Shown here: positions 1,000 to 62,737 of the stretch, piece by piece
How positions within the stretch are numbered: position 1 is the first letter of the stretch
Layout of the letters: each line of letters begins with the position of its first letter
Origin: Myxococcales bacterium
GTDB taxonomy: Bacteria > Myxococcota > Polyangia > Nannocystales > Nannocystaceae
Assembly: GCA_016793465.1 (NCBI GenBank)
Contig: JAEUJW010000097.1
Location: forward strand, 54,385 to 118,384
DNA length: 64,000 nt
Reading direction: 5' to 3'
Notes under the pieces: generated by a model
Database searches by the model: none
What the model was told of the DNA's origin: nothing
What the model saw: only the letters and a program-made list of their open reading frames with translations
Position numbers and translations under genes: made by a program

Positions 1000-2142
1000 G
1001 TGGTCGTGCTGAAGCGTACGGTGGAGCAGCAGCCGGGCGGATCGACCGCGCACGGAGTCAGGCCCGACGAGCTCGCGTCGGCGGGCCGTCGCATCGGCGT
1101 CCACGACCCCACGACCACGCTCCTGCAGGACGGGCACGACCTGTCGGACCGCACGCTCGGCATGCTGAAGACCCAGCGCGACGCGCTGCCCGTGCACGCC
1201 GCGGGCGAGGACGAACGCACCCTCGAGCCGGGCGCGACGCGCGTCGGTCGCTTCATCGTCGTGCGCCCGCTCGGGGAGGGGTCCATGTCGCGGGTCTACC
1301 TCGCCCACGACCCGGAGCTCGACCGCAACGTCGCCGTCAAGGTGTTCCGCGCCTCGGGCGCGGACGACCTGCTGCGCCGCCAGCGCGAGGCCCACGCGCT
1401 CGCCCGCATCTCGCACCCCAACGTCGTCCAGATCTACGAGTCCGGCAACCTCGACAGCCGGATGTTCATCGTCATGGAGTACGTCACGGGCGTCACCCTG
1501 ACCGCCTGGCAGACCGAGCAGCCGCGCACGTTGATGGAGCTGCTGGCGATGTACGTCGCCGTCGGCCGCGGGCTGGTCGCCGCCCACGCCGTCGGCGTCG
1601 TCCACCGCGACTTCAAACCCGACAACGTGATCGTCGACACCGCGGGCCGCCCGCGCGTCGCCGACTTCGGGCTCGCCAGCATCCGCGGCCGCGTCGACCA
1701 CCCCGCCGCCGACGACGTGCACGGCTCGTCGGTCACCTCGACCTCGGTCGGCGTGATCCTCGGCACCCCCGCGTACATGCCCCCGGAGCAGTACAGCAGC
1801 TCGCAGGTCGGCGAGTCCGCCGACCAGTTCAGCTTCTGCGCCGCCCTGTTCGAGGCCCTCTACGGCGAGCGGCCGTACCCCGGCGAGACCATCGAGGAGC
1901 TGCGCGTCGAGGTCTCCGCCGGCCAGCTGCGCGAGCCGCCGCCCGAGCGCCGCGCGCCGCCGGCCATCCACCTCGCGCTGCTCCGCGGCCTCGCGCGCGA
2001 CCCGGCCGCGCGCTGGCCGTCGCTCGTGGCGCTGCTCGACCACCTCGATCACTACGACCCCGGCCGCGACCCCTCGCGCGCCGCCAGCAGCGGTCGTTCA
2101 CCCTGCTGCTCGACCTGCTCATGCTGGTGGTCGGCGGCGTGA
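1000..2142 (+). CDS. Ser/Thr protein kinase (membrane tail out of frame)
   Basis: Cytoplasmic Hanks-type kinase domain, about residues 83-345. Visible elements are the glycine loop LGEGSMSRVY, catalytic Lys in VAVK (K114), HRDFKPDN (202-209), DFG (222-224) and the PPE that stands for APE at 261-263. All residues needed for activity are present. An 80-residue variable N-terminal extension precedes the domain. A GTG start is used here because no ATG fits; a second GTG lies two codons later. The frame ends in a cysteine- and tryptophan-rich nonsense tail, while the -1 frame continues with a juxtamembrane RRQQR and several hydrophobic helices (next entry). The intact product would therefore be a membrane-anchored kinase of about 549 residues with the join at the CCCC run 2070-2073. 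Confidence 0.85.
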   Translation: MVVLKRTVEQQPGGSTAHGVRPDELASAGRRIGVHDPTTTLLQDGHDLSDRTLGMLKTQRDALPVHAAGEDERTLEPGATRVGRFIVVRPLGEGSMSRVYLAHDPELDRNVAVKVFRASGADDLLRRQREAHALARISHPNVVQIYESGNLDSRMFIVMEYVTGVTLTAWQTEQPRTLMELLAMYVAVGRGLVAAHAVGVVHRDFKPDNVIVDTAGRPRVADFGLASIRGRVDHPAADDVHGSSVTSTSVGVILGTPAYMPPEQYSSSQVGESADQFSFCAALFEALYGERPYPGETIEELRVEVSAGQLREPPPERRAPPAIHLALLRGLARDPAARWPSLVALLDHLDHYDPGRDPSRAASSGRSPCCSTCSCWWSAA

Positions 2143-7810: not shown

Positions 7811-9340
7811 TCAGAAGTTGAAGTACGCCAGCTCGAGCACGAAGCCGCTGGACTTGTTCTGCGGGTCGAACACGCAGCTGTTCATGGCCTTCGACGGGCC
7901 GGTCCAGCCGCAGTTGCCGCCGCCGGTGAGGTCGACGACCTGGTCGTAGGCGCTGAACACGGCGTCGCCGGCCGAGCTGGCGCCGGCGGTGCAGAACGTG
8001 TCGACCACGTTGAACACGGTGCCGACGAGGTCGATGTTGGCGGCGCCGTTGGCCATGCCGGGGCCGTCGCAGCTCTCGGCGATCGCGTACGGCATCGAGG
8101 TGATCACGGTCTGCCCGTGCATGAGCTGGCCGGTCGACTCGCTGAAGGTGACGTCGTCGATGTCGACGACCAGCGTCTTCGGGTCGAGCCGCACGCGGGT
8201 GAACTGGGTGCGGACCGTGGTGCCCGGGCCGTCGGTCGCGTACTCCGAGAAGTTGTAGTCGCCGCCGACGTTGGCCAGCGGCAGGTACTCCCTGGGCGCG
8301 CCGGCCATGTCGTGGCAGTACGCCGCCCACGCGCGGCTCTCCTTGCCCTCGATGTAGAGCGTGTAGTCGCCGTCGGGCGCGTCGGGCTGCTTGGCCTTGA
8401 CCTCGGCGCACGTCTCGGGGAGAAACGGCAGGTACTCGAGCTCGAGCACGAACCCGCTGGTCTTGTTCTGCGGGTCGAACACGCAGTCGTTGCCCTTGGT
8501 CGGGCCGGTCCACCCGCAGAAGCCGCCGCCGGTGAGGTCGACGACCTGGGCGCCCATGCTGAAGACCGCGCTGCCGGCCGCGGTCGCGCCCTTGGTGCAG
8601 AACATGTCCTTGACGCGGAACGGGGTGCCGACGAGGTCGACGTTGCCGATCCCCACGGCCTCGTCGGGCCCGCCGCAGCCCTCGGCGATCGCGTAGGGCA
8701 TCGACGTCACCAGCGTGTTGCCGTGCGTCAGCATGCCGGTCGAGCTGCTGAAGGTGCCGTCGTCGATGTCGACGACCAGGTCGACCGGGTCGATGCGCAC
8801 GCGCGTGTAGCTGGTGACCACGTCGGTCCGCTGGTCGTCGGCGGCGGTGTACTGCGAGAAGTTGCGGCCCGGCGCGACGTTGACGAGCACCAGGTACTCG
8901 GCCGGCGTGCCGGCCATGTCGTGGCAGTAGGCCGGCCACGGCTTGTCGGCCGCCTCGCCGACGTACAGCGTGTACTCGCCGTCGCCCGCCCCGGGGTCGC
9001 CGGCCAGCACGTCGGCGCAGGTCTCGGGCAGCGCCGGCGGGTCGCCGGTGGTGTCGGTGTCGGTGTCGTCGCCGGTGTCGCTCGAGCTGGCGCCGGTCGT
9101 GGCGCTGGCGCCGCTGCTGGTGTCGCTCGAGCCGGCGCCGGTGGTGTCGTCCGGGCCCGCGGTCGTGCCGCTCGTCGAGTCGGGGCCGCCGGTGGTCGGG
9201 GCGACGGTCGTGCCGGTGCTCGGCGCCTCGGTGGCCGCGGTCGGGTCGCTCGTGCCGGGGTCGGTGGTCGCATCGGGGCTCGCCGGGCAGGCGGCGACGA
9301 CGAGCAGGGAGGACAGGACGAAAGAGTCGCGCAGGTGCAT
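7811..9340 (-). CDS. Lipoprotein with two tandem GON domains
   Basis: A 509-residue secreted lipoprotein: signal peptide MHLRDSFVLSSLLVVAAC with the lipobox Cys at 18, an 80-residue Thr/Ser/Gly/Asp linker, then two similar 200-residue modules (about 102-302 and 303-509). Each module starts LPETCA, continues GEYTLYV or GDYTLYI, W..YCHDMAG.P.EYL, NFS.Y, and ends with GFCGWTGP or GNCGWTGP and CVFDPQNK.SGFVLEL. This matches the GON domain known from the tail of animal ADAMTS9/20 proteases and from some bacteria. Cysteines are matched between copies, suggesting disulfides. No protease domain is present, so a surface binding role is inferred. Upstream GC-rich sequence shows no clear promoter. Confidence 0.8.
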   Translation of the reverse strand: MHLRDSFVLSSLLVVAACPASPDATTDPGTSDPTAATEAPSTGTTVAPTTGGPDSTSGTTAGPDDTTGAGSSDTSSGASATTGASSSDTGDDTDTDTTGDPPALPETCADVLAGDPGAGDGEYTLYVGEAADKPWPAYCHDMAGTPAEYLVLVNVAPGRNFSQYTAADDQRTDVVTSYTRVRIDPVDLVVDIDDGTFSSSTGMLTHGNTLVTSMPYAIAEGCGGPDEAVGIGNVDLVGTPFRVKDMFCTKGATAAGSAVFSMGAQVVDLTGGGFCGWTGPTKGNDCVFDPQNKTSGFVLELEYLPFLPETCAEVKAKQPDAPDGDYTLYIEGKESRAWAAYCHDMAGAPREYLPLANVGGDYNFSEYATDGPGTTVRTQFTRVRLDPKTLVVDIDDVTFSESTGQLMHGQTVITSMPYAIAESCDGPGMANGAANIDLVGTVFNVVDTFCTAGASSAGDAVFSAYDQVVDLTGGGNCGWTGPSKAMNSCVFDPQNKSSGFVLELAYFNF

Positions 9341-10909: not shown

Positions 10910-13900
10910 ATGGCGTGTCGCGGGCGCGGTTCGGCATACTGCGCCGCGTTGCTCGCACCCGGGCCGCACAGCACGGAGGCCGCACGCGCGGCGCTCCCGA
11001 CCCTCGACTCGAGCGACGCCGCGAGCCCGCCCGCGACGGACGGCCCGCCCGCGGACACGGGCCAGCGCGTCGGCCGCTACCGGACCCTGCGGGTGCTCGG
11101 CCAGGGCGGCGCCGGCGTGGTCTACTCCGCCTACGACCAGCTGCTCGACCGCATCGTCGCGCTGAAGACCGTACGCACCGACCGCAGCGCGCCGACCGAC
11201 GTCGGCCGGTTCATCCGCGAGGCCAAGGCCCTGGCCCGCCTGTCGCACCCCAACGTGGTGCCCATCCACGACGTGAGCATCGCCGGCGGCCAGGTGTTCC
11301 TCGCCATGGAGCTGGTCCGCGGCCGCACGCTGCGTCGCCACCTGGCCGAGACCGCGGGCCTCGGCCACGCCGCGGTGGTCGCCCTGTTCGTCGCGGCCGG
11401 CCAGGGGCTGGCCGCGGTCCACCGCGCCGGGCTCATCCATCGCGACTTCAAGCCCGACAACGTCATGGTCGGCGAGGACGGCCGCGTGCGCGTCCTCGAC
11501 TTCGGGCTCGTCCGCGACGCGCGCGGCGAGCCGACCGGCGAGCCCGAGGCCCACGCGACCCCCGCCGGCGACCTCACCGCGACCGGCGGGGTGCTCGGCA
11601 CGCCGGCGTACATGGCTCCCGAGCAGCACCGCGGCGGCGAGGCCGACGCGCGCAGCGACGTGTTCAGCTTCTGCGCGTCGCTCTACGAGGCGCTCTACGG
11701 CGAGCGCCCGTTCGCGGCCGACAGCTACGAGGGCCTGCGCGCGGCCACCCTGGCCGGCGAGGTGCGCCCGCCGGCCCACGCGCGGGTGCCGGCGTGGCTG
11801 CGCGAGGTGGTGCTCCGCGGCCTGCAGGCCGCGCCCGAGCGCCGCTGGCCGGCGATGGAGCCGCTGCTCGCGGCCCTCGCCGCCGACCCCGAGGCCCGGC
11901 GCCGCCGCCTCCTGCGCCGGCTCGGCCTGGCCCTGACGATCGCCGCTATCACCCTGGTCGCGACCCTGCTCGCCCTGCAGCTGCGACGCGCGTGGCGACA
12001 GCAGCGCGGCGAGGCCCTGGCCGCCGAGCACCTCGCCGGCGCGCTGTCCGAGGCGCCCGAGCGGGCCGACGCCGCCTTCGCCGCGTTCGTCGACGACCCG
12101 GCCCACCGCGGCACCCGGGCGCTCGCCGGCGCCTGGCTGCGCCGCGGCGACCGCCGACGCGACGCCGGCCAGCCCGACGCGGCGCTCGCCGACTACGCCC
12201 GCGCCTACGTCGAGGCGGCCGCGCCCGACGGCGCCGACGAGGCGCTGCGCCGCATCGCCGCCGTGCAGCTCGGGCGCTGGGACAGCGCGACGCTCTCGCA
12301 GGTGGTGGCCGCCCTGCCCGCCGCCCGCGACGACCGCGACACCGCCGACCTCCGCGTCGAGGCGGCGCTGCGCCGGCGCGACCTGCAAGCGGCCGTGAGC
12401 CTCGCCGCCGACCCCGCGTCGCGCTTCGCCGGCGCGCGCCCGCTGCTGCGCCGCCTGACGCCGGCCCGCGCGCTCGGCCTGCGCGCCCGCGAGGCCGTCG
12501 CCCTGCCCGCGGGCGGCCCGTGGAGCGCTGCGGTCGTCAGCGACGATCGCCACGAGCTCGTGCTCCTCGACCCCGCGCTCCGCCCCGGCCCGCGCTGGCG
12601 CGCCGACGCCAACGTCTACCTGACGCCGGGCGCGGCGCCGTGGGCCCTGACCCGCCGCGGCGACGACGGCCTGCTGATCGACGTGACCCGCCCCGAGCCG
12701 GCGCTGGCCGTGTTCCCGGCGCCGATCGACGCCTACCCCTACGGCGTCGTCGACGCCCGCGGCGACGGCCGCCCGGCGCTGTACTTCGGCTTCCAGTGGC
12801 CGCTGCGCGGCTTCCACGCGGTCGGCCCCGCGGGGCTGCGCGGCGCCCACGAGGCCACCGCCCGCGCGCGCTCCGACCTCGACGCGCTGGTCGCCGCCGA
12901 CCTCGACGCCGACGGCGTGCAGGAGATCGTCGCCGCCTTCGGGCCGCCCCGCGCCTTCGACCTGCGGGTGTTCCACGCCGACGACGACGGCGGGCTCACG
13001 CTGATCGGCCGGCGCCAATTCGGCTGGATCCGCGCGCTCGGCGCGCTCCGCCGCCCCGACGGCACCACCGCGCTGGTCGCCCTCCGCGACTCCCGCGGCG
13101 TCAACGCCGACGTGTTCCCCGAGCCCCCGCACCACGGCGCGGCGCCCGGGGTCCACCTGCTGCGCTGGACCGGCCGCGAGCTGACATCGCTGGCCCACGC
13201 GCCCCCGCCCCACGACCTGCCGCTGACCGTCGAGGACCGCTCGCTGATCGCCGACCTCGACGGCGACGGCCGCGACGAGCTCGCCGTGCGCGTGCGGGCC
13301 CCCGACGACGGCTCGCGCCACACGCTGCTGGTCCGCCAGACCGCCGACGGCGCGCTCGAGCCGCTGGTGCTCGGCCACTGCGAGCCGCTCGCGGCCGTGC
13401 GCGCGGCCGACGACGACGTCCCGGCGCTGCTCGTGCTCGACGCCGAGACCAAAGAGCTGTGGGCCCTCGGCCGCGGCGACGCGCCGATGCCCCCGGCCGC
13501 GGCCCGCACGTCGCCGTCACCGCCGCCGCCGCCGACCGACGAACCGCTGCGCCAGCGCTGGACCCGCGCCGAGGACCTCGCCGTCGCCGGCATGCCCGCG
13601 AGCGCCGCCGAGGTGCTCCGCGACGGCGCCGCCATGGTCGCCGACGCGGAGCTCCGCCGCCGCTTCCGCGACCGCGCCGCCGCCCTGTTCGCCGCCGCCG
13701 GCCAGCCCGAGGCCGCGCTCGCGCTCGACGTCGGCGACCCCGCGCCGACCCCCGACGCCCTGCTGCGCCGCGCCAGCCTGCACACCGAGCTCGGCGCCCA
13801 CGCCGAGGCCGCCGCCGCCGCGCGGGCCCTGCTCGACCACCCGCGACGCGACGACGGCCAGGCCCAGGCGGCCGCGGCCATCCTCGGGCGGGTGACGCCG

Positions 13901-15280
13901 CTGCTCGACGCGCGCGCCGGCCTCGACCTGCGCTTCGACGCCGCCCTCGCGCCGGCCTGGCACATCGAGCGCCCGGCGGCGCTGCGCCTCGACCCGGTCG
14001 CCGGCGCCCTGCGGATCGACGCGCTCGCCGGCCAGGGCCGCCTCGCGAGCCTGCCGGTGCGCTGGGACGGCGGCCCGCTCGAGATCGAGGTCGACCTCGA
14101 GGTCGAGCGCGCCGAGTACAACTCGGCCCTGCGCTTCGCCCTCGTCGACGCGGCCGACGAGGTGCTGCTCGGCGTCGACCTGCGCGGCGGCGGCGACCGC
14201 ACGTTCCACAACCACGGCGTCGCCTGCGTGCCCACCAACCAGATCGGCGACTTCACGCGCGAGGTCCCGTCCGCGGTCACGCGCCACCGCGTGGTCATGC
14301 GGGCCACCTACTTCCCCGACCGTGGCGTGATCGAGTGCGCCGTCGACGACGACGGCCGACGCACGTACAAACAATTGCGGCCGGCGACCCGCCCCGGCGC
14401 CGGCCGCCACACGCTCGTGATCGGCGGCGCCGATCCCCACGCCAGCCACCGCGTGACCGCCCTGCTCCGCGGCGTCCGCCTGCGCGGCGCCCGGCTCGAC
14501 GCGGCCGGCGATCCGCCCGCGCCGGGGCAGGCGATCGCCCGCGCCCTCGTCGAGGGCGACGCCCCGCCGATCCGCGATCCCGCCGCGCTCGCCGACCCGC
14601 GCCACGCCCTGCTCGCGCTGCTCGTCGCCGACTCGCCGGCTCGCCCCGTCGCGCCCGAGGTCCTCGCGCGGGCCCTGCCCGGCCTCGGCGACGCCGACCT
14701 GCTGCACCTGCTGCGCACCCGCGCGAGCCTGGCCCCGGCCCTGCGCGCCGCCGCGGGCCCGCGCGCGCTCGCCGTGCTCGCCGCGGTCTGGCTCCCGCTG
14801 GCCCGCCACCACGCCGACGACCCGGCGCTGCAGCGCGAGCTGCTCGCCGCCCTGGGCGGGCTCGAGGCCCTCGCCCTCGACGATTCGAACCGGCGAGCGA
14901 TCGGCACGCTGCTGCACGTGCGCGCGCAGATGCTCGCGCGCCTCGGCCGCCGCGCCGCCGCCCGCCGCGACCTCGAGGCCGCCCTCGTCGCCTTCGCGGC
15001 CACCGCCGACCCGCCGGGCGAGCCGCTGCGCGCGATCATCCACCGCACGCTCGCGGCCCTGCTCGTCGACGACGACCCCGCCGCCGCGCTCGCGCACACG
15101 GCCCGCGCCGTCGCCTGCGACGAGGCGCCCGAGCTCGCCCAGGATCGCCTGCGCCGCGAGCCGCGGATCCTCGCCCGCGCCGCCGCCGACCCGGCCTGGG
15201 CCCGCGTGCTGGCGGCGCCGCCGGAGCCCGCGACCTGCTCGCCGCCCGCCCGCGAGACCACCGACGATGTCCAGCCGTGA
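10910..15280 (+). CDS. Giant membrane Ser/Thr kinase with extracytoplasmic sensor region
   Basis: A protein of about 1456 residues. The cytoplasmic kinase domain (about 55-325) has LGQGGAGVVY, VALK (K86), HRDFKPDN (177-184), DFG (197-199) and MAPEQ, all intact. One membrane helix follows at about 338-358 (LGLALTIAAITLVATLLALQ). The rest is outside: TPR-like helices, FG-GAP-like calcium repeats (DLDADGVQEIVAAF and DLDGDGRDELAVRV, near 660 and 785), a beta-sandwich stretch around 1040-1170, and more helical repeats to the end. This suggests a receptor kinase sensing ligand or protein contact. It is divergent from the FHA regulator. The true start may be a codon or two later than the ATG given; no clear ribosome binding site is visible. 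Confidence 0.85.
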   Translation: MACRGRGSAYCAALLAPGPHSTEAARAALPTLDSSDAASPPATDGPPADTGQRVGRYRTLRVLGQGGAGVVYSAYDQLLDRIVALKTVRTDRSAPTDVGRFIREAKALARLSHPNVVPIHDVSIAGGQVFLAMELVRGRTLRRHLAETAGLGHAAVVALFVAAGQGLAAVHRAGLIHRDFKPDNVMVGEDGRVRVLDFGLVRDARGEPTGEPEAHATPAGDLTATGGVLGTPAYMAPEQHRGGEADARSDVFSFCASLYEALYGERPFAADSYEGLRAATLAGEVRPPAHARVPAWLREVVLRGLQAAPERRWPAMEPLLAALAADPEARRRRLLRRLGLALTIAAITLVATLLALQLRRAWRQQRGEALAAEHLAGALSEAPERADAAFAAFVDDPAHRGTRALAGAWLRRGDRRRDAGQPDAALADYARAYVEAAAPDGADEALRRIAAVQLGRWDSATLSQVVAALPAARDDRDTADLRVEAALRRRDLQAAVSLAADPASRFAGARPLLRRLTPARALGLRAREAVALPAGGPWSAAVVSDDRHELVLLDPALRPGPRWRADANVYLTPGAAPWALTRRGDDGLLIDVTRPEPALAVFPAPIDAYPYGVVDARGDGRPALYFGFQWPLRGFHAVGPAGLRGAHEATARARSDLDALVAADLDADGVQEIVAAFGPPRAFDLRVFHADDDGGLTLIGRRQFGWIRALGALRRPDGTTALVALRDSRGVNADVFPEPPHHGAAPGVHLLRWTGRELTSLAHAPPPHDLPLTVEDRSLIADLDGDGRDELAVRVRAPDDGSRHTLLVRQTADGALEPLVLGHCEPLAAVRAADDDVPALLVLDAETKELWALGRGDAPMPPAAARTSPSPPPPPTDEPLRQRWTRAEDLAVAGMPASAAEVLRDGAAMVADAELRRRFRDRAAALFAAAGQPEAALALDVGDPAPTPDALLRRASLHTELGAHAEAAAAARALLDHPRRDDGQAQAAAAILGRVTPLLDARAGLDLRFDAALAPAWHIERPAALRLDPVAGALRIDALAGQGRLASLPVRWDGGPLEIEVDLEVERAEYNSALRFALVDAADEVLLGVDLRGGGDRTFHNHGVACVPTNQIGDFTREVPSAVTRHRVVMRATYFPDRGVIECAVDDDGRRTYKQLRPATRPGAGRHTLVIGGADPHASHRVTALLRGVRLRGARLDAAGDPPAPGQAIARALVEGDAPPIRDPAALADPRHALLALLVADSPARPVAPEVLARALPGLGDADLLHLLRTRASLAPALRAAAGPRALAVLAAVWLPLARHHADDPALQRELLAALGGLEALALDDSNRRAIGTLLHVRAQMLARLGRRAAARRDLEAALVAFAATADPPGEPLRAIIHRTLAALLVDDDPAAALAHTARAVACDEAPELAQDRLRREPRILARAAADPAWARVLAAPPEPATCSPPARETTDDVQP

Positions 15281-43975: not shown

Positions 43976-45895
43976 TCAGCGCCGGCTGTACAGCGCCGCT
44001 TTGCTCGGCTTCTTGCGCTTCCCGACGTTCTCGCCCGCGAGCACCTCGACCGGCACGGGCGGGGTCAGCTCGATATAAAACCCGCGGTCGTCGCGACGGG
44101 CCGTGAAGCTGCTGCGCTTGTGTCGGACCTTGCGCACGTACCGCTCCTCGAGCGCCCCTTTGATCTTGTAGTCGTGGTGGCGCAGCAGGAACGACGTGAG
44201 CCCGAGGATCTGATGATTGTACGTGCGGTGGCAGCCGTGGCTGTCGCCGCGGGAGATCGACGGGTAGTTCACCGACCCGTGGGTGCGGATGGCCCGGTCG
44301 TGCAGCTTCCCGTCGCTGGTCACCAGGTGGTGGATGAGCATCGCCAGGCCGTAGGCCGAGCGGTAGCCCGGCCCGAGCAGCTCCTGCTTCAGCTCCCACT
44401 TGCCGTTGCGGGCGCGCACCAGCTCGCGGTCGGGCGTCGACTTCGGCGCGAACCACACCGGCGACACCACCAGGTCGCGCCACACCCGCGGCCCGATGTC
44501 CGACGCCTTGAACTTCTTGACCACCGCCCCGTTGCCGAGCTTCTCGTCCTGCCACCCGCCGATGGTCGTCGGCCAGCGCACCAGCGCCGTCTCGCGGTCG
44601 CCGTGCTTCGCGTACACGATCAGCATCGGGCGCCGGTTCGTCACCCGCCGCGCGTGCTTGCCGCGAGGCGCGTCGTAGGACACCTCGCCGCGGTCGATCA
44701 CCGCCCGCAGCTCCACGCCCTCGCGGTGGTACGCCGGCGCCGGCGGCAGCTTGATCGCCACCCGCGGCTCCTCGGCCGCCAGGCGGGCGCGCAGCGAGGC
44801 GCGCACGCTAGTAAAATCTCGCCAGCCGAGCGCCGCCGCGGCCGCCTCCGTCGCCCGCGAGATCAGGTCCGGCGCGCCGTGCTCGAGCGCCGGATAGTCG
44901 CCCTGGTAGCGCATCTCCGGCCCGTCGAGCGTGCGCCCGAGCACCGTGCCCCACTCGGCGCGCGCCGACCCGTCCTCGATCAGGCCGGCCGCGTCGGCCA
45001 CCCGCTGGCGCAGCACCCGCAGCGCCAGCCGCAGCTCGAGCTCCCGCGAGTCCCCGGCCATGGCCTCCCGCGTCTCCGCGTCGACCTCGCCGGTGGCGAC
45101 GATCCAGTGGCGCCGCTGATAGGCGCGCAGCGCCTCCGAGGTCGTCCAGTCGAAGTACCCGCGGCTGCGGCTCTGCGCGCTCATCAGCCCCTCGCACACC
45201 AGGTGCGCCTGCAGCCCCGCGATCGTGCCGGCCCGCGCCTCCGCCTGCTCGAGCTCGCCGACCGTCTTCTTGAAGCGCGGCTCGGCCGCGACCAGCGCCT
45301 CGCGCGAGGCGTGCCCGCCGCGCCGCATCGCCGCCGCGACCAGCCCGCGCAGGCGCCCCAGCGCCGCGTCACGGCTGTCCCCGGTGGCCCGCTTCTCCCA
45401 CCGCATCACCCCGCCGGTGGCCAGCGCCTCGTCGGCCACGGCGTCGTGGCAGCGGTGGCGCTGCTCGTCGTCCATGCGCGCGAGCACCACGTGGAAGTTC
45501 GGCGAGATGCCATAGAGCTCGAGCGCGCGGTCCTCCTCCTCGATCGACCCGGCCTCGAACTTCTCGCCCGCCAGCCGCACGTACGTCGCCGCGTAGGCCG
45601 GCGGCGCGTGGCCCACGGCCTGGGCCGCGCCCGCCAGCGCGAACGGCGTCCACTCGTCGCCGAGGTCGACCGCCGTCAGCCCGCGCTCGCTCGCCTCGTC
45701 GGCGCACACGCTGCCCGTCGCCTTGCCCGCGGCCAGCACCTCGAGCGAGCGCTCGCACTTCGCCGCCGCCTCCGCCGCTCCGCCGACGCCTGCGACCGCC
45801 AGGCAGGCGCCCAGCTCCAGCGTGCGGCGGACAACCCTCGTGACCCTCGTACATGCAGCGAACAACATGATCGTTGCCCTGTCTTTGACACGCAC
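43976..45895 (-). CDS. L,D-transpeptidase (YkuD) with peptidoglycan-binding domain
   Basis: A 639-residue exported enzyme. Signal-like N-terminus (LELGACLAVAGVGGAAEA), a long helical region, a PG-binding-1-like part (GYFDWTTSEALRAYQRRHWI), and a C-terminal YkuD catalytic domain: IRTHGSVNY (H539), SHGCHR with H553, catalytic C555 and R557. It makes 3-3 crosslinks or attaches proteins in peptidoglycan. The domain order resembles YcbB/LdtD-type enzymes. Met10 (45868) is another start choice and sits nearer the signal helix. Divergent from the cupredoxin-like lipoprotein. Confidence 0.9.
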   Translation of the reverse strand: MRVKDRATIMLFAACTRVTRVVRRTLELGACLAVAGVGGAAEAAAKCERSLEVLAAGKATGSVCADEASERGLTAVDLGDEWTPFALAGAAQAVGHAPPAYAATYVRLAGEKFEAGSIEEEDRALELYGISPNFHVVLARMDDEQRHRCHDAVADEALATGGVMRWEKRATGDSRDAALGRLRGLVAAAMRRGGHASREALVAAEPRFKKTVGELEQAEARAGTIAGLQAHLVCEGLMSAQSRSRGYFDWTTSEALRAYQRRHWIVATGEVDAETREAMAGDSRELELRLALRVLRQRVADAAGLIEDGSARAEWGTVLGRTLDGPEMRYQGDYPALEHGAPDLISRATEAAAAALGWRDFTSVRASLRARLAAEEPRVAIKLPPAPAYHREGVELRAVIDRGEVSYDAPRGKHARRVTNRRPMLIVYAKHGDRETALVRWPTTIGGWQDEKLGNGAVVKKFKASDIGPRVWRDLVVSPVWFAPKSTPDRELVRARNGKWELKQELLGPGYRSAYGLAMLIHHLVTSDGKLHDRAIRTHGSVNYPSISRGDSHGCHRTYNHQILGLTSFLLRHHDYKIKGALEERYVRKVRHKRSSFTARRDDRGFYIELTPPVPVEVLAGENVGKRKKPSKAALYSRR

Positions 45896-46910: not shown

Positions 46911-48650
46911 ATGCTCGCGCTCCGGGCCCTGCACCGCGCCGCTCCCCTCGCCCTCCTGCTCGCCTGCACCGCCCCGCCCGAGCGCCCCGCGGCCCCGGTC
47001 GCGGCGCCCGCCGTGCCCGCCGCGCCGATCGTGCCGCCGCCGCCGGTGCGGATCTCGGTGCACGCCGAGTACCCCGGCGCCGCCGTCGAGGAGGTCGAGC
47101 GCGCCCTCGCCGAACCACTCGAGCGCGCCCTCGCCGACATCCCCGGGCTCGTCGGCAGCCGCAGCGTCTCGCGCCCCGGCCGCCTCGAGCTGACCCTCGA
47201 GCTGCCCGCCCGCGCCGACGTGAACGCCGCCCGCGTGGCCGCGTACGAGCGCCTGCAGGCCGTCCAGCGCGAGCTGCCCGCGTCGGTGAGCCCGCCGATG
47301 CTGGCCGCCGATCCCCACCCGCACGCCGCCCTCGTGTTCACCCTGCACAGCGCCGAGCTCGACGCCGTCGCCGTGCGCCGCCTCGCCGACGAGCTCCGCG
47401 ACCACGCGCTCCGGACCCCCGGCGTCGCCGACGTGATCGCCTGCGGCGGCCGCGACGCGCAGCTCGAGATCCAGCTCGACCCGTCCCGCCTCGGCGCTTA
47501 CGGCGTCTCGATCCTCGACATCATCGCGACCCTCCGCCGCGACCTCGCCCCCGCGAGCGCCCGCCTGCCCGGCGCCGTCGTGCGCGGCGCCCCGGGCGAC
47601 GTCGGCGCGCTCGCCGAGCTCGTCGTCCGCGAGGGCGACATCGGCGTGCGCCTGCGCGACCTCGCGACGATCGCCGCCACCGCCCGCGCGCCCGCCTGCG
47701 ACGCCGTCCGACTCGACGGCGCCCCCGTCGTGCTCGCCGCCGTGTACGCCGCGCGCGGCGCCCGGCCCGACGAGTTCACCGCCGCCGTACGCGGCGCCCT
47801 CACGGCCCGCGCCGCCGCCCTCCCGCCCGGCGTCACCCTCGAGGTCCCCGACCCGCCGCCGCACCGCCTCGCCCTCGCGCTCGACGGCGCCGGCGACGTC
47901 GCAGTCACCGACCTCGCCCGCCGCCTCCCCGCCCTCGCCGCCCCCGCCGTGCTGCAGGTCGGCCCGCGCGAGCCCGGAGCCACCCGCCTGCTCGCCGACC
48001 TGTTCGTGTTCGCCGACCCCGCGCCCGCGCTGTCGCTCCCGCCCGGGGTCTCGCACCTCGCCAGCGGCACCGTCGCCGACGCCTTCGACGACCCCACCCA
48101 CCACGTCGTCCGCGTCACCGGCCCCGACCTCGACGTCGACGCCGAGCTCGCCGCCCGCTTCGTCGCGCTCGCCCGCGAGACGCCCGGCGTCGCCCTCGCC
48201 GACGTCCGAGACGACCGCGCCGGCGAGCTCGCGCTCACGCTGCGGCGGGACCGCCTCGCCGACCGCGGCCTGCAGCCGGCCCCCGTCCGCGACGTGGTCG
48301 CCGCCCTGCTCGGCGAGCTGCCCGTCGGCGGCCTCCACGAGGCCGCGGTCACCACCCCGGTGATCCTCCGCATCGGCGACGGCGGGTCGGTCCCCGGCGA
48401 TCCCGCCGCCCTCGCCGAGCGGGCCCGCGGCCTCGCCCTGCCCGGCCCGTCCGGCCCCGTCCCGCTCACCGACGTGGTCGACATCCGCAGCACCGTCGAG
48501 CGCGCCGCGATCGTCCACCACGACCGCCGTCGCTGCGTCGAGGTCGACGTCCGCTACCGCAGCGCCGACCCGGCCGCCCGCAAACAATTGCAGGACGCCA
48601 CGGCCGCCGCGCTCCAGCTCCCGCCCGGCCACGCGATCGTGTGGGACTGA
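46911..48650 (+). CDS. Lipoprotein made of RND efflux porter domains without membrane helices
   Basis: A 579-residue lipoprotein: MLALRALHRAAPLALLLAC (lipobox Cys 19), short Pro/Ala linker, then sequence matching the periplasmic porter parts of AcrB/CusA-type pumps. The first porter half has EYPGAAVEEVERALAEPLER, DIPGLVGSRSVSRPG, TPGVADVIACGGRDAQLEIQ, LDPSRLGAYGVSILDI and VRLRDLATI. The second half repeats the pattern (TPGVALADVRDDRAGEL, RDRLADRGLQPAPVRDVVAA, GPVPLTDVVDI). In a real pump each half is separated and followed by six membrane helices; none is present here. It is therefore soluble and outer- or inner-membrane anchored by lipid. No membrane-fusion or outer-membrane gene is adjacent. 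Possible roles: substrate-binding antenna or decoy. Confidence 0.8.
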   Translation: MLALRALHRAAPLALLLACTAPPERPAAPVAAPAVPAAPIVPPPPVRISVHAEYPGAAVEEVERALAEPLERALADIPGLVGSRSVSRPGRLELTLELPARADVNAARVAAYERLQAVQRELPASVSPPMLAADPHPHAALVFTLHSAELDAVAVRRLADELRDHALRTPGVADVIACGGRDAQLEIQLDPSRLGAYGVSILDIIATLRRDLAPASARLPGAVVRGAPGDVGALAELVVREGDIGVRLRDLATIAATARAPACDAVRLDGAPVVLAAVYAARGARPDEFTAAVRGALTARAAALPPGVTLEVPDPPPHRLALALDGAGDVAVTDLARRLPALAAPAVLQVGPREPGATRLLADLFVFADPAPALSLPPGVSHLASGTVADAFDDPTHHVVRVTGPDLDVDAELAARFVALARETPGVALADVRDDRAGELALTLRRDRLADRGLQPAPVRDVVAALLGELPVGGLHEAAVTTPVILRIGDGGSVPGDPAALAERARGLALPGPSGPVPLTDVVDIRSTVERAAIVHHDRRRCVEVDVRYRSADPAARKQLQDATAAALQLPPGHAIVWD

Positions 48651-49830: not shown

Positions 49831-50388
49831 ATGTTCGCCGGCCACTTCGACTTCTCCCACCCGCTCGTGTGGACCGTCGACGACGCGCTCGCGCCCGCCG
49901 CCTGCGAGGACCTGCTGACCCGCCTCGCGCCCGGCCCCTGGCTGCCCGCCACCGTCAACCGCGCCGACGGCCGCGCGGTCGACCGCCGCGTCCGCAACAA
50001 CGAGCTCGCCCTCGTCGACGACCCCGCCCTCGCCGCCGCGCTGTTCGAACGCCTGCGCCCCGACCTCCCGGAGCGCCTCATGGGCCTGCGCCTCACCGGC
50101 CTGAAGCAGCGCATGCGCTGCTATCGCTACCGCGTCGGCGAGTACTTCGGCCCGCACGGCGACCAGTCGTACCCCGGCGCCCCCGGCGAGCGCAGCCTCC
50201 TGACCCTGATGATCTACCTCGACGACGGCTGCGAGGGCGGCGAGACCGCCTTCCTCGACCTCAATAAAATCATCGTGCCCCGCCGCGGCCGCGCCCTGCT
50301 GTTCCAGCACATGGTCCTGCACGAGGGCCGCGCCGTCACCCGCGGCGTCAAGCACGTGCTGCGCACCGACGTGTTCTACCGCGAATGA
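49831..50388 (+). CDS. Prolyl 4-hydroxylase-like 2OG-Fe(II) dioxygenase
   Basis: A 185-residue oxygenase. The iron facial triad is visible as HGDQSY (HxD) and the distal His in [11 protein letters not shown]; the 2OG-binding basic residue follows in [14 protein letters not shown]. The family oxidises protein or small-molecule substrates using 2-oxoglutarate. It ends in a 13-bp overlap with the convergent second dioxygenase gene. The pair differ in family, so this is not a duplication. Confidence 0.88.
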
Positions 50389-51368
50389 TCCGCCGCCAAT
50401 TCGGGGAACACCCGCGCCACCTTGTTTAATAGGTATTCGCCGTAGGTGCCATGAAACGCGTGCACGCTGGCCCGGTCCCAGCGCGAGGCCGCGTCGTCGT
50501 CGACCCCGCTGGCCAGCCGCGGCAGCGGCCGCACCTCGGCGTCGAAGTCCGGGTCGAAGAACAGCGGGAACGCCAGCCGCGAGCGCCCGCTCGCGTTGCG
50601 CACGCGATGCGGCGTCGAGCGGTACCACCCGCCCGTCAGCCGATCCAGCATGTCGCCCAAATTACAGACCAGCGCGCCCGGCACCGGCGGCGCCGAGATC
50701 CACCCCCGCGGCGTCCGCACCTCGAGCCCGCCGACGTCGTCCTGCGCCAGCAAGGTCAAGAGCCCATAATCGGTGTGCTCCCCGACCCCCCACGAATCTT
50801 CACACCCCGACGGAGGCGGAGGCGGAGGCGGATAATTAAAGATGCGAAACAGCACCGTCGGCTCGCGCGTGTAATTTAATACAAAGTAGTCGTCCGGCAG
50901 TCCGAGCCCCGCCGCGATCGCGGCCATCAACGAATGCGCGGACTCCGTCGCCTCGCGCATATAATCGTCGACGGCCGCCCGCAGCTCCGGCACCCGCCGC
51001 GGATGCAAGTTGCGCCCGTGCAGCGGCACCCCCGCGCGCACGCGCGGATGCTCGTCATCCAGCTCGGTCCCGTAATAGATCCCCTCTTTGTTGTCCGGCA
51101 CCCCCGAGGTCAGCTCCCCGCCGACCGGGAAGTACCCGCGCCACGCCCGGCCCGCGCGCGCCATGGCGATCTCGAGCTTGTCCGCCGCCGGCAGCGCGAA
51201 GAACCGGGCGCTCGCCGCCGCCAGCCGCGCCAGCGTCGCCTCACGCACCGCGTGGCCCACGACGTAAAAGAACCCGTGCTCGCGGCACACCGCGGAGATC
51301 GCCGCCACGACCTCCGCTCGCCCCGCTCCCCCGCTCCCCAGCGGGCCCATGTCGATGACCGGCAGCAC
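50376..51368 (-). CDS. Isopenicillin N synthase-like 2OG-Fe(II) oxygenase
   Basis: A 330-residue double-stranded beta-helix oxygenase. N-terminal DIOX_N part ([36 protein letters not shown]), then the iron site [12 protein letters not shown] (HxD) and [20 protein letters not shown] with the third His and the 2OG-binding RxS. Related enzymes hydroxylate or desaturate small molecules and antibiotics. A run of prolines, [11 protein letters not shown], near residue 185 is unusual. The codon usage includes several AT-rich spots. The substrate is unknown. Confidence 0.9.
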
Positions 51369-60208: not shown

Positions 60209-62737
60209 TCAGCGCGGCGGCAGCGTCGCCATCCAGGCCAGGATCCGCCGCTGGTAGGGCGCGAACACCTCGGCGTCGCCGCGGAGGAAGCCCAGCGCCT
60301 CGCCGGCCAGCTCCCGCGCGCGCGCCAGGTCCCGACCGTCCGCCCACACCGCCCGCGCCAGCCCGAAGCGGTTGCCGGCCGCCGCCTCCGGCGGCGCGTT
60401 GCTCGAGCGCGTGGCCTGCACCCCGCGTTCGAACCACGCCCTCGCCGCCTTCGGCCGCCCGCGGGCCAGCTCGAGCTCCCCCATGCCCGCCAGCGGGAAG
60501 CCGAACTCCGCGTCGTCCGGCGCCAGGATGCGCTCGTACATCGCCAGCACCCGCCGGTGCAGCCGCTCCGCCTCGTCGTAGTTCTTCAGGTTGCGGTCGG
60601 CCTCGGCCAGGCTGTACAGCGCGTCGGCCACCAGGCGGTGCTCCGCCCCGTACTGGGCCTCCCGCAGGGCCAGCGCCCGCTCGAGCAGCCGCCGCGCCTC
60701 CGCGTACGAGCCGCGCTCGCTGTGCACGTTGGCCAGCCCGTACAGCGCGCCGGCCAGCTCGGGGTGGTCCGGCCCGAGCGTCGCCTCCTGGATCGCCAGC
60801 CCGCGTTCGAACAGCCGCAGCGCCCCGACCAGCAGCCCGCGCAAGGCGTACAGGTTGCCGAGGTTGACCATGCCGCGCGCGACCTCCGGGTGCTCGGCCG
60901 GCAGCGCCGCCGCGGTGATCGACAGCGCCCGCTCGTACAGCCGCTGCGCCGCCGCGTACTGGTGCTGCTCCTGCCGCATGACCGCGAGGTTGTTGAGCGA
61001 GCGGGCGACCTCGAGGTTGTTCGGCCCGAGCGCCCGCTCGCGGATGGCGATCGCCCGCATCAGCAATTCGCTGCCCTCGGCGAAGGCCCGGCGCGCGTGG
61101 GCCACGTTGGCCAGCGCGTGCAGCGAGGCCGCGACGTCGGGGTGATCGGACCCCAGCGCCCGCTCGCGGATCGCCAGCGTGCGCCGCCACAGCGCCTCCG
61201 CCGCCTCGAGGTCCGTGGCGACCAGCAGCTTGGCCAGGTGATCGCGGGTCGCCAGCGTCTCCGGGTGCTCCGGCCCGGCCAGCCGCTCGTACAGCGCCAG
61301 CGCCCGCTCGAGGTTGCCGCGCGCCTCGGGCGACCCCTGCGACTGCTGGATCAGCCCGACGCTGCGCAGCAGCGCCGCCCGTCGCAGGCTCTCCGACTCG
61401 CCGAGGCGGTCGAGCCGCGCCGCCGCGACCCGACCCCAGCGCAGGCCCTCCTCGTGGCGCGCCAGCCAGCGACCCTCGGCCTGCGTCAGCCCGATCTCCG
61501 CGTCGGCGATCAGCGACTCGTCGCCCGCCCGCACCGCCTCGACCAGCCCGTCCTCGTGCCAGCGCGCGCCCGCCTGCAGGTCGCTCGCCGCCCCCGCCGC
61601 CGCCCCCGCGACCAGCCGAGCCCGCGCCGCCAGCGAGCCCCAGCCGACCGCGTCGGCCCGCAGCACCAGCGAGCGCGCCAGCGCGTACGCGTCCGCGTAG
61701 CGGCCCGCCGCCTGCAACGCGGCCACCTGGGCGAACCGCCGGGCCACCGCCTCCGCGCCGACCCGCGTGTCGCGATCCCGCGGCGCCGCCGCCCCGTGCG
61801 CCAGCCACCCCGCGTCGAGGCACGCGGCGATCGCCGGCAGGCTCGCCGCCGCCTGGCCCGCGCGCAGCGCCCCCTGCGTGTCCTGCACCGCCGACAGCAG
61901 CCCCGCCAGCGACCAGCGCGCCGCCTGCAGGCACGCCTGCGCCCGCTCGCCGGTCTCCGCGTCCCACGTCCGCGTGACCCGCTGGCGCAGGCAGGCCAGC
62001 CCCTCCGCGTCGTCCCACGCGCGCGCGTAGTCGTCGAGCGTGCGCTCGACCCGCGCCGCCGTGCCGGCCGCGTGCGACGAGCCGGTCGCCAGCATCGCCG
62101 CCCGCAGCCGCCCGCGCGCCGCCTCGCTCCACGTCTCGCCGATGCTGCGCCCCGCCTCCGCGCACTCGCGCACCCGCGCGGCGACCTGCCAGCGCTGCCA
62201 CCCCAGCGCCCCGCCGAGCGCCGCCGCCGCCAGCAACGCGCCCGCGAGCGCCCACTGCCGCTGCCTGCGCCGCTCGCCGCCGCCGAGCGCGTCGAGCAGC
62301 GCCGCCATCGACGGCCAGCGGTCGCCGGGCTCGACCGCCAGCCCGCGCTCGACCGTGCGGCGCAGCCACGACGGCACCTTCGCCCCCGCGGGCGGCGGCC
62401 GGCGGTTGCCCGTCGAGATGTTCATGACCATCGCCGCCAGGGTCTCGCCGACGAACGGCCGCTCGCCGTACAGGCCCTCCCACAGCGCCACGCAGAACGC
62501 GAACTGGTCGCTCTTCGGGTCGCCCTCGCCGCCCAGCCACTGCTCGGGCGCCATGTACGACGGCGTCCCGATCAGCGCCCCGACCTGCGTGACCTTCGAG
62601 CGCAGGATGTCCCCGTGCGACGCCATCGACGCCTCGAGCGTCCTGCGCGTGCGCGCCGCGTCGCCCGCGCGGGCCAGCCCGAAGTCCATCACCCGCACGC
62701 GCCCGTCGGCCCCGACCATCACGTTCTCGGGCTTGAA
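60209..62737 (-). pseudogene. Ser/Thr kinase gene cut at the catalytic loop; TPR tail intact
   Basis: The remaining part starts in the middle of the catalytic loop (FKPENVMVG, next to the expected HRD) and continues with DFGLARAG, an APE, one membrane helix (WALAGALLAAAALGGALGW), then a long series of TPR_10/kinesin-light-chain-type repeats of about 42 residues (AIRERALGPNNLEVARSLNN is one). The glycine loop, Lys and HRD are absent: upstream sequence is foreign and has an in-frame TAG seven codons before the junction. An ATG at 62722 could start a kinase-less fragment. The missing N-terminal half should lie at the far end of the integrated element, outside this window. Confidence 0.85.

Follow-up and report, generated by a model that had tools for sequence, protein, structure and literature searches.

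The porter domains of resistance-nodulation-division (RND) transporters have been studied almost only within proton-driven pumps. One of these pumps is CusA, a copper/silver transporter of the heavy-metal efflux (HME) type, which has a three-methionine metal site. Bodies that lack the membrane helices have been made by engineering: AcrBper, derived from AcrB, and BstA-PD, an active binder made of RND periplasmic halves in which a linker replaces the helices, as described in a passage of PMC10942540. Here we describe a gene at positions 46911 to 48650 of a 64,000-nucleotide stretch of a Myxococcales genome (contig JAEUJW010000097.1; this stretch is hereafter called the window), which encodes a lipoprotein carrying both porter halves of an RND pump and no membrane helices. 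No natural helix-free RND porter protein was found in the open-access literature searched with narrow multi-term queries, in agreement with the first-pass annotation of the window, which held that a soluble, anchored RND shell is not a known efflux component.

The gene begins with ATG and forms a single open frame of 579 amino acids on the forward strand. Its product is called P0001, and residue numbers below are those of P0001. The guanine-plus-cytosine (GC) content at codon positions 1, 2 and 3 was 0.87, 0.55 and 0.98 across the gene, a pattern typical of real genes. Just upstream, in the same frame, the third-position value fell to 0.53, so that the ATG at 46911 is the credible start of the lipoprotein gene despite a frame that is open from further back. 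A lipobox (LLAC) is found at residues 16-19 and ends in Cys19. The Pfam profile ACR_tran (PF00873) matched P0001 in two stretches (E=3.6e-40, 138 bits versus a cut-off of 28), and alignment to the CusA chain placed residues 44-311 on CusA 50-329 (N half) and residues 400-577 on CusA 690-864 (C half), in the order found in RND pumps. On the CusA/CzcA subfamily model TIGR00914, P0001 scored 101.6 bits, below the curated cut-off of 701.45. By the CusA alignment and the structure model, P0001 has the porter and docking subdomains of both periplasmic halves. Hydropathy analysis gave no transmembrane-like segment in P0001, versus 9 to 13 in each of 227 RND relatives longer than 1000 residues. PN2 (to about residue 315) runs straight into PC1; the fourth transmembrane helix (TM4), with the acidic residues of the proton relay, is absent.

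The predicted fold of P0001 was the RND porter/docking fold. A first model, built from a four-row alignment, had a predicted local distance difference test (pLDDT) score of 54 and was dropped. The alignment behind the second one mis-sets residues 316-344 or so against pump helices, which partly explains the low model confidence in PC1 (about residues 316-396), a subdomain that is present, yet poorly conserved and poorly modelled. From sequence and model together, we are highly confident that P0001 is, by fold and descent, a lipoprotein with the complete periplasmic part of an RND pump (PN1-PN2/DN-PC1-PC2/DC) from which all twelve helices were lost. In terms of sequence it is an RND protein whose defining pump features, the helices and the proton relay, were tested and are absent. 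The first-pass annotation had described the product in these terms, with the blocks of both halves kept in order, and had proposed a profile search with RND models and a structure prediction compared with the AcrB-type porter; both analyses agreed with its description.

The same architecture recurs elsewhere. Besides P0001, 15 further one-piece members were found (total 16), and 12 of these come from independent genomes, where the contigs reach 13 Mb. Three are metagenomic proteins of 590-618 amino acids obtained by protein searches (P0002, P0007, P0012), and twelve came from genome searches (G216, G367, G385, G336, G537, G520, G388, G389, G390, G391, G392 and G394). The last six are syntenic members (loci L114-L119) in close relatives of the window's organism, whose DNA polymerase I is 79-81% identical, over its full length, to those of G388, G389, G390, G392, G393 and G394. 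In G391 (C2 11323297-11325965), the DNA polymerase I match is split into two pieces that overlap, one of which contains an in-frame TGA; in close relatives the match is in one piece. A lipobox was present in 13 of the 16 members (8/10 by computed test and 5/6 by eye). At L118 (G389 C1, near 9197-9290), one of the six orthologues, the signal-peptide stretch is out of frame with the rest of the gene; the break is either a real lesion or a sequencing error. The first-pass annotation had named a conserved stand-alone family as what would support its reading; such a family exists, with one architecture in 12 independent genomes and a shared pair of cysteines.

This pair is the signature of the family. 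Other members are 25-33% identical to P0001, and only nine columns are invariant across the 16 sequences, two of them being Cys178 and Cys263. Both cysteines were present in 16/16 members and in none of 231 full-length RND relatives; among the latter, Cys occurs at position 178 in no case and at position 263 in one. In the secondary structure of the model the two residues flank the DN docking subdomain, one at the exit of the chain from PN2 and the other at its return. Residue 263 corresponds to about AcrB 276, by an ungapped count made by eye. A three-Cys metal site, suggested by the first four sequences, was dropped, because the third residue (Cys542) occurs in only 4 of the 16 members; the pair alone remains. 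The six nearest orthologues have a second invariant Cys pair, in PC1, that is missing from the window's copy. P0001 contains two Met in all, one of which is the start Met, and a CusA-like three-Met site is thus impossible in the window's copy. The metal binding evoked by the first-pass annotation is excluded there in the CusA fashion.

The number of members is a lower bound. In each genome the scans scored no more than a few top candidates, and members missed there turned up on deeper scoring. No member was seen in G388-G394 when 45-46 candidates were scored per genome, and 6 of these 7 genomes were positive with up to 150, which overturned an apparent absence from the closest relatives; in G393 there was no member among the matches listed with up to 150 candidates scored. 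The surveys gave at least 3 of 29 genomes and at least 6 of 317 (4 candidates each). Phylum scans of 377 genomes with 3 candidates each showed one and three members and are unusable as a survey. Among the 120 of 162 matches listed in the last protein search, no stand-alone member other than P0001 and P0002 was found; P0007 and P0012 were missed, so that the database was not exhausted. In the viral contigs searched, no relative of the helix-free family was found.

The six syntenic orthologues keep the frame open at 65-89% identity, versus 97-99% for a neighbouring gene. The ratio of nonsynonymous to synonymous substitution rates (dN/dS) was below 1 in 15/15 pairs of orthologues (0.47-0.86, median 0.75). 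Two shifted frames of the same orthologues gave medians of 0.97 (+1 frame, range 0.83-1.21) and 1.40, and two neighbours gave 0.12 (aminotransferase) and 0.63 (another lipoprotein). Judged by these ratios, purifying selection on the gene is real but weak, and the protein is maintained and fast-changing.

A maximum-likelihood tree was computed on both porter halves (444 columns, 64 rows: 16 members, P0004 and 47 pumps). The 16 members and P0004 formed one clade, with support of 100/99, set against the 47 pumps. Without P0004, the stand-alone set had a support of only 64/36, and it was not one group in a quick ten-member tree. In the latter, the clade grouped (Shimodaira-Hasegawa approximate likelihood ratio test, SH-aLRT, 99) with 30 pumps including the CzcA-named P0006, P0033 and P0047, the CzcA-named P0231 lying outside. 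Several end branches of the tree are long, and the tool warned of a possible attraction of L093 to the L114-L119 group. By sequence, the source pump was probably of the heavy-metal type. P0004 is a metagenomic 'CzcA' of 804 amino acids on a 37-kb contig. It differs from the helix-free members of its clade by seven transmembrane-like segments (one N-terminal, five in the middle and one C-terminal; pumps have 9-13), by a Trp at the place of Cys178 and by the lack of the Cys pair, as seen by eye. It is possibly a half-way stage of a pump losing its helices, or a parallel case. No P0004-like gene was found in 317 genomes at E 1e-40, with 3 candidates each and without a positive control.

Besides the helices, the arm of the trimer has changed. 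The arm stretch (residues 204-248) is 45 residues long in P0001 and 31-49 in the 16 members, versus 49-64 (median 53) in 231 pumps, the lengths for members and pumps being taken from two different alignments. In none of the 16 members is it longer than the pump minimum, which P0002 equals. PN1, PN2a, PC2 and DC are mostly of pump length in the members, somewhat shorter in L092, and the docking subdomains DN and DC are about as well kept as the porter subdomains. AcrB needs its arm to form the trimer (stated in a passage of PMC8277102), and AcrB from which 17 residues were removed is a well-folded monomer (in a passage of PMC4303003). With a short arm in the members and an arm needed for the AcrB trimer, the family protein is therefore, by analogy, probably not an RND-style trimer. 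Columns kept in at least 8 of 10 members and rare in pumps consist, apart from the two Cys, of small or hydrophobic swaps (e.g. I254, L568).

Table 1. Features of the helix-free RND lipoprotein gene, in window coordinates.
Feature	Position	Strand	Basis
Whole gene, encoding a lipoprotein that has both RND porter/docking halves and lacks membrane helices	46911..48650	+	Open reading frame, Pfam, CusA alignment, model, hydropathy
Signal peptide; lipobox LLAC, with the Cys expected to be lipidated at codon 19 (46965-46967); Thr at +2	46911..46967	+	Sequence; sorting rules in a passage of PMC3222651
Pro/Ala-rich linker, residues 20-44, mostly of low model confidence	46968..47042	+	Sequence, model
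PN1 porter subdomain, residues 45-134	47043..47312	+	CusA/AcrB alignment, model; approximate boundaries
PN2, first part, residues 135-178; last residue is invariant Cys178 (47442-47444), at the place of AcrB F178	47313..47444	+	Ungapped alignment by eye for AcrB numbering
DN docking subdomain, residues 179-262, trimer arm shortened	47445..47696	+	Model, arm-length comparison
PN2, second part, residues 263-315; first residue is invariant Cys263 (47697-47699)	47697..47855	+	Family alignment
PC1 subdomain, residues 316-396, poorly conserved; directly after PN2, where a pump has six membrane helices	47856..48098	+	Alignment, model
PC2, first part, residues 397-440	48099..48230	+	CusA alignment, model
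DC docking subdomain, residues 441-524	48231..48482	+	CusA alignment, model
PC2, second part, residues 525-579, up to the stop; includes non-conserved Cys542 (48534-48536)	48483..48647	+	CusA alignment, model, family alignment

Gene neighbourhoods were compared by Pfam assignment. In the window, a lipoprotein frame lies upstream of the gene and a Peptidase_M19 gene 37 bp downstream; in 4 regions of relatives around the M19 dipeptidase, the dipeptidase itself was the sole gene in common. In the six close relatives, where assignments were made on the L114 copies, the order is aldehyde dehydrogenase, class-III aminotransferase, the gene, a DoxX-like gene and a lipoprotein, and farther on a Rieske/KshA_C/SCP2 protein and a fatty-acid hydroxylase. 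The gap between aminotransferase and gene is 4 bp in 4 of 5 cases measured, and 85 in L116 from the chosen start. The DoxX-like gene, the lipoprotein, the Rieske/KshA_C/SCP2 fusion and the hydroxylase span L114 10622-15974 and the syntenic places in L115-L119. From its domains, this block suggests lipid or steroid chemistry. In G385 (L069 2003-9147), TamB-like and Omp85/POTRA (TamA-like) genes follow the member directly. Other neighbours are an ABC ATPase (L056), an aldehyde dehydrogenase (L092), a histone-deacetylase-family gene (L093), and an M50 peptidase and an AMP-binding enzyme (L094). An aldehyde dehydrogenase thus occurs close to the gene in two different contexts; it is a common gene and this is perhaps due to chance.

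No adaptor, outer-membrane factor or RND gene was found among 10 neighbours in the window and 20 selected neighbours elsewhere, and no second RND-like frame of the window matched the family profile at E 0.01. No neighbour was common to the 7 divergent contexts. The other matches across these contexts paired L070 and L093 genes with window genes distant from the lipoprotein gene. Three regions of the window (1000-2142, 10910-15280 and 60209-62722) all match a single G367 gene (L070 1650-4454), a shared domain being probable. Elsewhere in the window, two convergent 2OG-Fe(II) oxygenase genes overlap by 13 bases (49831-50388, forward strand, with 2OG-FeII_Oxy_3; 50376-51368, reverse strand, with DIOX_N and 2OG-FeII_Oxy), and a reverse-strand gene at 43976-45895 has a PG_binding_1 peptidoglycan-binding domain and no Pfam match in the remainder.

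What could such a protein do? The most likely function, although we hold it only tentatively, is that of a passive holding or binding protein of the periplasm, which is favoured because the two helix-free bodies engineered from RND proteins have been shown in vitro to bind drugs and sterols. The lipid anchor would be inserted in the outer membrane, as expected from known sorting rules for a Thr at +2 (Lys or Asp at this position is an inner-membrane signal, according to a passage of PMC3222651), and would display the porter/docking body in the periplasm. A disulfide between C178 and C263, the natural reading of such a pair in a periplasmic protein, would clamp the neck of the DN docking subdomain, through which the chain passes in and out, and the shortened arm would leave a monomer or weak oligomer. 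Given how RND pumps work, a protein with no TM4 proton relay and no helices for coupling should be unable to pump. The cleft between subdomains may take a hydrophobic or envelope-derived ligand, by analogy with the engineered bodies.

Several observations weigh against one or another part of this picture. The pocket residues known from AcrB have not been retained; AcrB F178, a drug-binding Phe of the deep pocket (according to a passage of PMC8277102), is replaced by Cys in the family. PC1, which forms one wall of this pocket, is the least conserved subdomain, with a mean pairwise identity of 0.19 versus 0.29-0.32 elsewhere; it is also the lowest in the pump control (0.16, with only 0.38 of PC1 columns aligned), and the low score may partly come from the alignment. 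No new pocket signature was found among family-conserved columns in the comparison of 10 members with pumps. Two of the 16 members (L093, L094) have a single N-terminal membrane helix instead of the lipobox, and in P0002 one hydrophobic stretch of PC1 (341-359) is borderline, lying barely above the threshold. Purifying selection is weak, and the upper end of the dN/dS range of the gene slightly overlaps the range of the +1 frame (0.83-1.21). Finally, no particular pumps stand out as nearest in the 16-member tree, and descent from heavy-metal pumps rests on best matches and on the ten-member tree.

Among the alternatives, a role as pump partner or decoy is the least improbable, though clearly behind passive holding: a docking/porter surface anchored in the outer membrane would engage adaptors or TolC-like factors and tune, cap or compete with pumps. 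DN and DC have been preserved along with the porter, the member genomes carry many RND genes, a monomeric AcrB mutant cross-links the adaptor AcrA like wild type, the trimer being unneeded for contact (in a passage of PMC4303003), and Escherichia coli has a TolC-binding outer-membrane lipoprotein, YbjP (according to PMC13082787). Such a partner sits poorly, however, with the lack of any linked adaptor, outer-membrane-factor or RND gene among the neighbours tested, and with the shortness of the arm, which gives the top of the trimer its shape. The gene might instead be a relic, a pump minus its helices persisting under weak constraint with little or no function. The median dN/dS of 0.75, the fast divergence relative to the neighbouring gene, the out-of-frame signal stretch of one orthologue in six (L118) and P0004 as a half-way state in the same clade would all fit. 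We regard this as unlikely, since the porter frame is open in 16/16 members and an anchor (lipobox or one helix) is kept in 15/16, two of only nine invariant columns are the Cys although the other members are just 25-33% identical to P0001, all 15 pairs have a dN/dS below 1 and the position is kept in 6 genomes.

A narrower variant of the holding function, rather unlikely as a whole, is that an RND pump was turned into a passive carrier of sterol- or hopanoid-like lipids tethered to the outer membrane: after a P0004-like stage the trimer would have been lost, DN locked by the disulfide, and the protein would hold envelope lipids. It draws on the sterol binding of an engineered RND periplasmic domain (in a passage of PMC10942540), on the block with the Rieske/KshA_C/SCP2 protein and fatty-acid hydroxylase shared by six genomes, and on the TamA- and TamB-like genes beside the member of another genome. 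That the protein is the soluble half of a two-part transporter, joining a separate membrane part or entering RND trimers as a hetero-subunit, is improbable. All porter and docking subdomains are present, and matching surfaces could exist; against it stand the absence of an RND gene from the window and from the other tested neighbours (no search of the genomes was aimed at an RND protein made of helices only), an arm that in 16/16 members does not exceed the pump minimum, and the lack of a neighbour common to the 7 contexts. The first-pass annotation had mentioned assembly with a separate membrane part, an idea that these data leave unsupported. It had also named a frameshift or assembly error as what would undo its reading. 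A frameshifted, deleted or mis-assembled ordinary RND gene, which might be suspected from P0001 scoring on RND pump profiles only, has a negligible probability: it was refuted by independent members that share the architecture in 12 genomes, carry a Cys pair that pumps lack and mostly have a signal peptide where the first helix would be.

Passive holding remains the reading that we prefer, and the existence of a conserved natural family in which the periplasmic machine was kept and the motor dropped points to some independent use for the shell. The family and P0004 outline a possible route from pump to non-pump. They also carry a warning for annotation: profile matches alone would label such genes efflux transporters, though transport is expected to be impossible for them.

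With regard to known systems, the E. coli lipoprotein YbjP is likewise an outer-membrane lipoprotein tied to efflux machinery, but this is a functional analogy only: by its description in PMC13082787, where a heading names DUF3828, it belongs to another family. BstA-PD resembles P0001 in construction; it is man-made and of HpnN-like RND origin, and natural BstA is a sterol-binding membrane protein (according to a passage of PMC10942540). Relative to the HME transporters CusA and CzcA (TIGR00914; PDB 3ne5, 3k07), P0001 is without TM1-TM12 and the proton relay, and it adds a lipobox and a Cys pair, with a short DN arm and too few Met for the three-Met site. AcrBper has the same construction and size (chains of 572-589 residues) as P0001 and gave the highest-ranked Foldseek matches (E 1.6e-37, template modelling score 0.7). 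AcrBper differs in that it is man-made, trimeric in crystals and not lipidated, and in that it keeps the drug-binding Phe residues. The family would be a natural counterpart of AcrBper, and a soluble system in which the roles of porter and docking domains can be considered without transport.
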